From positions 1 through 64,000 of the IMG/VR virus record IMGVR_UViG_3300009171_000001: a stretch of DNA of 64,000 nt. The stretch is one strand, 5' to 3'. A program made the position numbers and the translations under genes. Below the pieces are notes generated by a model that did no database searches, was not told the DNA's origin, and worked only from the letters and a program-made list of their open reading frames with translations. Each line of letters opens with the position of its first letter. Positions within the stretch are counted from its first letter, which is position 1. Of this stretch, positions 29,693-32,288 are shown in pieces. This stretch comes from a virus.

Positions 29693-30246
29693 AAAACATA
29701 TCAAAAAATTGTAAACAGGAGGGGACAATAATCTCCAAAGCACTCGAACCTTTGGCAGTAGAAGCAAGGAAATATAAGACAGTAGAGGAATTTGAGGAAA
29801 AATTATGGGAGATAAAACAATGGGGCGAACAAAGACATAGAACGTCCGGTTTTCCTCAATTAAGCGCAATGCCTGGAGAAGAGGAACGATACAATAAGTG
29901 GTATGAAAATTTATCACCAGAAAAGAAGGCATTAGAAGATTTATACGTTTCTTATAGAAACGTTCCCAATAGGGGAATTACCATATCAGATTTTTACAAG
30001 CAAGCCAAGCAAGCCCCTGCGCCAGAGGGGATAATTAAAGTAGGTGATACAATCACAAATGGAATGGTACGTGGCAAGGTTATTGGTGAAGGCTCTATCA
30101 AATTTGGCAAAAGTCCATTGCCTGCCTACAAAGTCAAAATCCTCACCGGCCATGAAAAAGGTACAATTTCATTGATGATTAAAACCGACTCAAAGTTAGT
30201 ATCAAATGATGCCTTTGTACAGCAGTACGGCAGAAAGAAGAAATGA
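29689..30246 (+). CDS. Hypothetical protein, 185 residues
   Basis: Start ATG 29689 follows AAAGGAGAACAAAA. The N-terminal 120 residues are helical and charged (KYKTVEEFEEKLWEIKQWGE, RYNKWYENLSPEKKALEDLY) and the C-terminal 60 form a beta-rich module (IIKVGDTITNGMVRGKVIGE, YKVKILTGHEKGTISLMIK) reminiscent of small SH3-like barrels. It overlaps the truncated helicase fragment by 4 nt. Not recognised. Confidence 0.55.
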   Translation: MKNISKNCKQEGTIISKALEPLAVEARKYKTVEEFEEKLWEIKQWGEQRHRTSGFPQLSAMPGEEERYNKWYENLSPEKKALEDLYVSYRNVPNRGITISDFYKQAKQAPAPEGIIKVGDTITNGMVRGKVIGEGSIKFGKSPLPAYKVKILTGHEKGTISLMIKTDSKLVSNDAFVQQYGRKKK

Positions 30247-30359
30247 CCAAACTATATCCATTTCAAAAACGTGGTGTCCGCCAAATAATCCGATTTGGTG
30301 GACGTGTGTTGTTGATAAAATATAAAATATCTCTTGACCTTTTCCTATACCCATTATAG
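30243..30359 (+). pseudogene. Truncated 5' copy of the SNF2 helicase gene
   Basis: A 38-codon frame starts [20 protein letters not shown] and matches the start of the intact helicase ([20 protein letters not shown]) at 17 of the first 24 positions; it then diverges (LLIKYKIS) just before the helicase Walker A motif and stops. It overlaps the upstream gene by ATGA, as an active gene would. The break lies about 75 nt before the endonuclease gene's ATG-bearing leader. It mirrors the truncated connector copy at 10063-10221. Confidence 0.75.
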
Positions 30360-30408
30360 TATTGGGTTTTGGTAAAAAGAACATTCATTATTAGAAAGGA
30401 ACAAAAAG

Positions 30409-30939
30409 ATGCCAAGAGGTATTTATCCAAGGACAAAAAATCAATTGAAAAATGCGAAGAAAAATCTTGCAATGGGTCGTACTCCCAAAGCACGAGAAAA
30501 AGCAAGACAAAAAATGATTGAGAAGGCAAAAAATATAGAATGGAGAAAGTTAGTATCAGAACAAACTAAAAAGGCCATGCATCAACCAAACATACGAAAA
30601 AACCACCTGAGAGGACTGTTCAAAGCAAGAGCAAAATATGGTATCAATTTTAAGGGAGGTAATGGACAAAAGCCAACCCCTATTATAGAATTAGCTAACA
30701 AATTATTTAGTCAATGTGGATTTGAAAGAGAATATGTAATAGAAACAAAAATAATAAAACAAAACTTTGAAAATATACCAGATTCATATAAAGCTGATTT
30801 TTGTAATCCCAAACAAAAGTTGATAATAGAAATGGATGGACCTTGCCATCGGCCCAGGAAACAAAGAAAACTGGATAGAAAAAAGACAAAAGTATTAAAA
30901 GCTCTTGGTTGGCGGGTTGTGAGGTTGAAACATCAATGA
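30409..30939 (+). CDS. Homing endonuclease-like protein, VSR/DUF559-type nuclease
   Basis: The 176-residue basic protein has an N-terminal region rich in NUMOD3-like basic repeats (RTPKAREKARQKMIEKAKN, SEQTKKAMHQPNIRKNHLRG) and a C-terminal VSR/DUF559-like nuclease: SYKADFCNPKQKLIIEMDG supplies Asp and Glu, then H-R-P-R-K and KTKVLKALGWRVVRLKHQ. It overlaps the intact helicase start by 4 nt and lies after a truncated helicase 5' end. The arrangement argues for homing into the helicase gene. Function is confident, activity unknown. Confidence 0.75.
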   Translation: MPRGIYPRTKNQLKNAKKNLAMGRTPKAREKARQKMIEKAKNIEWRKLVSEQTKKAMHQPNIRKNHLRGLFKARAKYGINFKGGNGQKPTPIIELANKLFSQCGFEREYVIETKIIKQNFENIPDSYKADFCNPKQKLIIEMDGPCHRPRKQRKLDRKKTKVLKALGWRVVRLKHQ

Positions 30940-32288
30940 CAAAATTATTTTCGTACCAAAAAGAATCTGTAAGACAGATCATACGGTTCAAAGGAAGAAC
31001 TTTACTTGCGTTAGAAATGGGTTTGGGTAAGACTTTAGTGGCTCTGTCTTATCTTCGACAACAAACGGGGACAATCCCTGCGATGGTTGTCTGTCCTGCA
31101 TCGGCTAAGTGGGTATGGAAAAACGAAATCAAGAAACATACCCACTTCAAAAGTCAGATTCTAAATGGCAAATCGCCCAGGCCCATCCAATGCAAAGACA
31201 TAACCATTATAAACTATGATATTTTACCACAATGGAAAGATGTTTTGAAAGGGATGAATCATCCTACAATGATATTAGATGAGTGCCAATACATCAAATC
31301 CTGGCAGGCCAAGCGCACTAAGGCTGTGATAAGTCTGGGCCGAAACAAACCTCACATCCTTGCGTTAAGTGGTACACCTTTGACTAATAGGCCAAAGGAA
31401 TTATATAATGTATTACATTTGTTGTTGCCTGAAAGGTTCACCTCATTTGTCCCATATGCTTGGCGGTTTTGTAACAGACGGATAACACCTTGGGGATGGG
31501 ATGATAATGGGGCAAGCCATTTGGATGAGTTGCATAATATACTCAAAGAGACATGTATGATTAGGCGTTGCAAAAAACAAGTGTTGTCTGAATTACCGGA
31601 CAAACAACGCAGTGTAATTTTGTTGCCTGTTAATCTGACCGAATATCGTAGGGCTGAAGATGATTTTATCAACTGGTTAGCTGAGCAGGATGTCGCTAAG
31701 GCTGAAAAAGCTAAGCAAGCAGAGGCTTTGGTCCAATTGGGTTATTTGAAACGATTGGCCGCTAAGTTGAAGATGAAAGCAGTGATGGAATGGATGGATG
31801 ACTATTTTGAATCAACTGACGCTAAGTTGGTTGTTTTTGCATATCATAAATCCATAATCCAAACTTTGCATCAACAATACAAAAAATTCAGTGTGGTATT
31901 AGATGGGAGGACATCTCAGGCGGGAAGGATACAAAGCATCCAAAAATTTCAAGAGGATAAACAAACCCGTTTGTTTATAGGTCAGTTAATTGCAGCAGGC
32001 ACAGCTATTACCCTGACCGCAGCATCGACAGCCGCGTTTGTAGAATTAGATTGGGTGCCAAGCAACCATATACAAGCAGAGGACAGGTTGCATCGTATAG
32101 GTCAAAAAGCCCATACCCAAATATATTATATAGTTAGTAAAGATACTATTGAAGAAGATTTGTGTAATATAATTCAAAAGAAAGCAAAAACGATTACATC
32201 TGTATTAGATGGTCGAAAAAGAAAAGATGAATTAAATATCTTTGATAAATTGAAGAACATTATTTATGAAAGGAAAAACAATGGATAA
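30936..32288 (+). CDS. SNF2-type DNA helicase/translocase
   Basis: The ATG at 30936 is chosen because it matches the start of the truncated relative upstream and forms ATGA with the endonuclease stop. The 450-residue protein has motif I [14 protein letters not shown] near residue 32, motif II [14 protein letters not shown] near 112, motif [20 protein letters not shown] near 150 and a C-terminal helicase lobe with [20 protein letters not shown] and [19 protein letters not shown], the typical motifs V-VI of SNF2 enzymes. It probably acts in replication, repair or recombination. Confidence 0.9.
   Translation: [450 protein letters not shown]

Follow-up and report, generated by a model that had tools for sequence, protein, structure and literature searches.

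The SNF2-type helicase gene of this phage was interrupted near its start by an endonuclease-bearing segment that brought a new helicase 5′ end with it, so that the gene is now chimeric. The source is an IMG/VR virus contig (a 73.8-kb record of 73,759 bp), of which positions 1–64,000 make up the stretch of DNA analysed here, referred to as the window. Comparison with the closest relative, which lacks the endonuclease, supports insertion by 5′-end replacement at the helicase locus. Considering the sequence evidence together, we think it likely that the segment is a homing element with neither intron nor intein, which would spread by exchanging the 5′ end of the gene that it targets.

The helicase locus and an uninterrupted relative

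The preliminary description of the locus had reported a helicase-like fragment, an endonuclease and a full helicase with an ATGA overlap, and all of these features are present in the sequence as described (Table 1). The fragment ORF comprises 24 native helicase codons, 14 unrelated residues and a stop codon, and 17/24 residues are identical between its native part and the start of the intact helicase (30936–32288; 450 aa; SNF2 PF00176 with E 4e-34, plus Helicase_C). The break also lies where it had been placed, just ahead of the Walker A codons: it falls after codon 24, and GLGKT occupies codons 29–33. The native junction between the upstream gene and the helicase (30243–30246) is likewise ATGA. 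Within the leader of the insertion, TTGACC/TAGTAT is a weak promoter candidate, one among several weak consensus matches in a promoter scan of this region. As a separate observation, a leader/ribosome-binding sequence, AAGGAGAACAAAAATG, precedes nine early-region genes (23713–29690, plus strand), mostly after a TATCTTATTT-like run, and its recurrence possibly reflects a repeated control element.

Table 1 Features of the helicase cassette and of cassette 1 (positions in the window)
Feature	Position	Strand	Remark
Native helicase 5′ end, remnant, 24 codons	30243–30314	+	71/72 bases as in the L001 gene
Fragment ORF, 38 codons; last 14 codons from the inserted segment, stop TAG	30243–30359	+
Inserted segment, 726 bp, in place of 33 bp (native codons 25–35)	30315–31040	+	From comparison with L001
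Leader of the insertion: promoter-like TTGACC/TAGTAT and ribosome-binding-like AGAAAGGAACAAAAAG ahead of the endonuclease ATG	30315–30408	+
Endonuclease gene, 176 aa; N-terminal region basic and helical, catalytic domain of predicted DUF559/Vsr fold	30409–30939	+
ATGA overlap, endonuclease stop and helicase start	30936–30939	+
Divergent replacement helicase 5′ end, 35 codons	30936–31040	+	61% nucleotide and 71% amino-acid identity to native
Native remainder of SNF2-type helicase, stop at 32286–32288	31041–32288	+	98.2% identical to L001
Cassette 1 fragment, 52 codons (about 46 homologous), native 5′ end of DUF4054/DUF7370-like head gene	10063–10221	-
Cassette 1 endonuclease, 239 aa, NUMOD3 (PF07460) and TnsA-like (PF08722)	9344–10063	-
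Cassette 1 intact head gene, 133 aa, first ~46 codons a divergent copy	8946–9347	-

When viral contigs were scanned with the helicase, a single close relative was obtained, IMGVR_UViG_3300009087_000035 (L001; 5,043 bp), which has no endonuclease and encodes one uninterrupted helicase of 450 aa. The flanks on either side of the insertion are 96.6–97.4% identical between the window and L001. Bases 1–72 of the L001 helicase differ from the window fragment by a single mismatch, while the intact window helicase shares only 64 of its bases 1–105 with L001 (61%) and then, from base 106 (codon 36) on, 1226 of 1248 bases (98.2%), which places the switch to the L001 lineage exactly at codon 36. In the alignment with L001 the junctions fall after 30314 and before 31041; relative to the L001 allele, 726 bp were gained and 33 bp lost, the latter corresponding to codons 25–35 with the Walker A (ATP-binding) motif. 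Because L001 holds an uninterrupted gene that matches first the fragment and then the window helicase from codon 36 onward, we conclude that the 726-bp segment replaced these 33 bp. The replacement 5′ end has the same length as the native one (35 codons, no indel), and the length of the helicase is unchanged.

The comparison with an endonuclease-free relative, which the preliminary description had called for, thus pairs the 5′ end of the L001 gene with the fragment and the remainder with the window helicase after codon 36, and the proposed separate origin of the first codons of the intact helicase is supported by the drop in identity over the replaced 5′ end. The helicase does not follow one phylogeny over its whole length, nor was the fragment found beside a full gene in endonuclease-free relatives.

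The same comparison bears on a simpler reading, in which endonuclease and helicase form an ordinary nuclease–helicase pair and the upstream ORF is a chance or decayed leader. Adjoining genes with an ATGA overlap are a usual operon sign and would fit such a partnership, but L001, at 97% identity, has the intact helicase without the nuclease, the fragment corresponds exactly to the start of the L001 helicase, and a scan of helicase relatives for N-terminal duplications returned just one spurious match; we therefore consider a partnership highly improbable. Little probability is also left for splicing, be it of a group I intron whose first exon would be the fragment or of an intein with the fragment as extein. 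The break does occur at a highly conserved motif, as is the case for introns and inteins, but no Rfam match was obtained across the window (none significant at 30200–31100), neither the endonuclease nor the helicase contains a Hint/intein domain, and the insertion is followed by a 5′ end that is in frame, complete and provided with an ATG of its own, which would be superfluous for splicing.

Downstream of the helicase, the two sequences differ at another place. There an ORF of 64 aa precedes the next large gene, which has 289 aa in the window, and between the two L001 (positions 3380–4114) carries three extra small ORFs that are absent from the corresponding part of the window (32463–32508).

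The new 5′ end and the endonuclease

Divergence from L001 is high in codons 1–35 of the window helicase, both at synonymous (pS 0.83) and at non-synonymous sites (pN 0.26), and low in the rest of the gene (pS 0.08, or 7.8% of sites; pN 0.002, or 0.2%). The G+C content is 34.3% in the new 5′ end and 32.4% in the leader and endonuclease, as against 41.7% in the native 5′ end and 39.0% in the rest of the helicase. When the two N-termini were compared to 82 related viral helicases, the native one was closer in 79 cases, three were ties and the new one was closer in none (summed identities of 1615 for the native and 1281 for the new N-terminus); the native N-terminus also scored better in 59/59 relatives from later scans, nearly all of them cellular. 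Two near-invariant positions are altered in the new copy, namely D26 (present in 80/82 relatives), which is L, and Q35 (69/82), which is V. The former change removes the near-invariant Asp from SNF2 motif I (DEMGLGKT to LEMGLGKT). A 12-residue motif of the new start was found elsewhere in just two viral contigs, in distantly related helicases.

No donor of the new 5′ end was found among the 82 viral and 59 mostly cellular helicases, and its first 43 residues, searched against phage records, found nothing beyond about 50% identity. Judged by these comparisons, the new 5′ end may stem from an unsampled sister lineage or may be a fast-diverged copy, the sister lineage being favoured because of the base composition and the saturated synonymous sites. 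If instead the helicase 5′ end had been duplicated in tandem around the inserted endonuclease, with one copy diverging in place and no foreign donor, this would explain why the new 5′ end shares 25/35 residues with the native one but at most 24/35 with any of the 82 relatives, and why both ends contain VRQIIRF. The diverging copy would however have to reach synonymous saturation within 105 bp (pS 0.83), with the flanks and the remainder of the gene at 2–4% from L001, and to arrive at a G+C content that fits the endonuclease rather than the host gene, which makes such a duplication unlikely, if less so than the partnership and intron or intein readings. The longest exact match between the helicase duplicates is 6 bp, only 18/30 bases of the left-junction region are kept in the new copy, and nowhere else in the record does similarity to the native target rise above background.

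The endonuclease matches PF04480 (DUF559) with an E value of 1.4e-10 and 41.4 bits, above the curated cut-off of 20.6. An AlphaFold2 model, obtained from an alignment of 28 sequences, has a core pLDDT mostly >90, and VIA-align superposes its predicted fold on 3hrl, a DUF559 protein (Z 7.6; rmsd 1.6 over 67 residues), on 3r3p, the catalytic domain of I-Bth0305I (Z 7.6; rmsd 2.5 over 72 residues), and on Vsr (Z 7.0). These Z scores, being below 8, are modest and would be weak if taken alone, but a profile search with the endonuclease agrees with them (3hrl, E 6e-12; I-Bth0305I 3r3p, E 1.2e-3), and on the predicted fold and the profiles together the protein has a Vsr-like catalytic core. Residues Y127, D130, E141, D143, H147, D156, W168 and R172 are invariant across the 28 aligned relatives and all present in the endonuclease; they are candidates for the catalytic residues of the EDxHD motif. 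The N-terminal 80 residues are basic, helical and without match, and plausibly bind DNA; no DNA-binding NUMOD domain was recognised in this endonuclease. One single-protein scan of viral contigs recovered no relatives of it.

Related DUF559 endonucleases have a genomic setting of their own. In 76/80 IMG/VR loci (L039–L118) their genes are nested in full, in the +1 frame, within another long ORF, and further ones were found in Vibrio phages CP-T1, K391 and 104E43.1, Corynebacterium phage phi673 and Pseudomonas phage MR14 (L009–L013). Intein splicing domains were present in five hosting ORFs that were checked, and in most of the others intein-like junctions (..DE|C...HN|CHH..) lie at Walker B of a helicase or clamp loader. 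As a precedent for such nested genes, the out-of-frame HNH element ‘ShiLan’ comes nearest among those found, and it is no intein itself (PMC11855218).

A second cassette and the distribution of the layout

A head gene on the opposite strand of the same phage is the site of a second cassette (cassette 1; Table 1) with the same anatomy, that is, a gene-start fragment, an endonuclease and a full gene with a divergent start. Fragment and endonuclease overlap by TAATG, endonuclease and head gene by ATGA. The start of the full gene is 68% identical to the fragment at the nucleotide level (pS 0.65, pN 0.22), and the longest exact match between these duplicates is 12 bp. The head gene is uninterrupted in 25 more distant relatives, and the fragment was closer than the N-terminus of the full gene in 21/25 of them (574 vs 495 identities over all 25). 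Since the fragment is the closer of the two to these relatives, it is, by sequence, the native 5′ end, and the intact head gene carries the divergent start. No close empty relative was found for cassette 1, the only near record (IMGVR_UViG_3300027955_000002) being the same phage; it contains the cassette and is 100% identical over 16.9 kb.

This second record also bears on whether the helicase locus could be a metagenome assembly chimera of two phage populations. The helicase cassette is known from one record and the contigs are metagenomic, as a chimera would require, but the join is in frame and preserves the length of the gene, the endonuclease stop and the helicase start are interlocked, and the parallel cassette 1 is identical in both records, so that a chimera has a very low probability.

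The N-terminal part of every ORF was compared by tblastn to the DNA upstream of it over the whole record. Two duplicated pairs were obtained, the helicase pair (E 2e-6) and the cassette 1 pair (E 9e-17), and both flank an endonuclease ORF; no other start-of-gene duplication with E <1e-3 was found in the record except one low-complexity match. In a stricter scan of about 1.6 Mb of related phage DNA (1,791 gene calls), the layout around an endonuclease was found solely in this phage, and C-terminal mirror layouts around an endonuclease were not found in this DNA. The layout was likewise absent from the 80 DUF559 endonuclease loci examined. Among the remaining matches of the scan, those in L020 and L024 are repeat-rich genes and those in L060 and L185 look like paralogues or weak similarity.

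The preliminary description had suggested two different nuclease families and a general mode of insertion. The first suggestion holds in that the TnsA-like and Vsr/DUF559 nucleases differ, although they share one restriction-endonuclease fold superfamily. The second finds two independent loci in its favour, both in one phage, whereas the other phage DNA scanned lacks the layout.

Another endonuclease candidate, an HNH_3-type ORF (47271–47600, plus strand), has 4-base overlaps on both sides, with a gene for uracil-DNA glycosylase/exonuclease (46057–47274) and the DNA polymerase A gene (47597–48982). It was rejected as a case of gene splitting because the polymerase is a separate ORF in relatives too, and thus looks like an intergenic homing endonuclease. 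The neighbouring gene at 46057–47274 (plus strand) is a single ORF with both a uracil-DNA glycosylase and a 3′–5′ exonuclease domain, placed directly upstream of that for the polymerase domain.

Proposed mechanism and comparison with known elements

For the homing element that we propose at the helicase locus, the endonuclease would cut uninterrupted helicase genes near codons 24–35. During co-infection, repair of the break or gap from the element-bearing genome would then copy the endonuclease and the alternative 5′ end jointly, using as homology arms the native remnant with the upstream gene on one side and the helicase from codon 36 on the other, both of which reach the cut. The alternative 5′ end would keep the helicase working and, as it does not contain the uncut target sequence, may confer immunity to cleavage. 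Its divergence would also prevent loss of the element through recombination with the remnant, because the longest exact match between the two is so short. Translation of the helicase is probably coupled to that of the endonuclease, as the start of the former is embedded in the stop codon of the latter. The first insertion probably involved a divergent donor with the endonuclease directly upstream of its helicase, and the joining would have been homologous on the helicase side and non-homologous on the other.

The closest parallel is found in fungal mitochondria, where mobile ORFs have created ‘gene hybrid’ elements in Glomus atp6, atp9, cox2 and nad3 and in Allomyces macrogynus atp6 (PMC3630166). 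In Glomus, the displaced native part has 91–98% nucleotide identity to close relatives, compared to 64–81% for the new part (PMC3630166). As in the phage, an endonuclease ORF sits in a conserved gene, a divergent terminal copy is fused in frame and the native remnant is kept. In the fungal elements, however, the 3′ end (C-terminus) is replaced, the endonucleases are of the LAGLIDADG or GIY-YIG type and the genomes are those of organelles, whereas the phage cassette replaces the 5′ end with a new start codon, uses a Vsr/DUF559-fold nuclease and lies in a phage operon.

Among phage endonucleases, mobE interrupts nrdA in Aeh1 and mobA interrupts gene 60 in T4, while others of the seg/mob type are intergenic (PMC2988022). 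Aeh1 mobE and T4 mobA resemble the helicase cassette as free-standing phage endonucleases in a DNA-metabolism gene with translational overlap with their neighbours; they differ in that the split gene yields two polypeptides which assemble with each other, or, for seg/mob, in that the endonuclease lies between genes. In the parts of PMC2988022 considered here, replacement of the broken gene end is not described for T4-type phage endonucleases. An intergenic seg/mob-type endonuclease is ruled out at the helicase, where 33 bp of coding sequence were lost and 105 bp replaced. I-Bth0305I, an EDxHD/Vsr-like homing endonuclease (PDB 3R3P) with a target of nearly 60 bp (PMC3943268), is similar in predicted catalytic fold and by profile, but it is named in the PDB as a mobile intron protein and the helicase cassette has no intron. 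A keyword search of a limited literature set found no report of 5′-end replacement by a phage endonuclease.

HomeR, a synthetic home-and-rescue gene drive, makes its cut in the coding sequence of an essential gene, for which it supplies a re-coded stretch of 22–27 aa (PMC7968924). Here too a re-coded stretch, of 35 aa in the helicase cassette, would restore the cut gene; HomeR is however engineered and Cas9-based, and there the re-coding affects the 3′ end, downstream of the cut. More tentatively, and with somewhat less confidence than an even chance would imply, we suggest a natural class of phage home-and-rescue elements, in which Vsr/DUF559 and TnsA-like endonucleases would invade needed genes near the start. 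A diverged 5′ end of 35–46 codons would rescue the gene, block re-cutting and prevent loop-out, and the stop–start overlap would tie its expression to that of the endonuclease. For such a class, the changes of D26 to L and Q35 to V beside the break could be escape changes selected by the element’s own nuclease.

In the usual view, selfish endonucleases that hit conserved genes persist through splicing (introns and inteins), by choosing an intergenic site or where gene splitting is tolerated. Replacement of the broken end would be a further solution in phages, and would explain how non-splicing endonucleases can reside within the coding sequence of needed genes. The predicted scar, a truncated gene start followed by an endonuclease and the full gene, would be annotated as unrelated ORFs. 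End replacement would also move short coding pieces between lineages, and the phage cassette may be regarded as a natural counterpart of engineered gene drives with recoded rescue.
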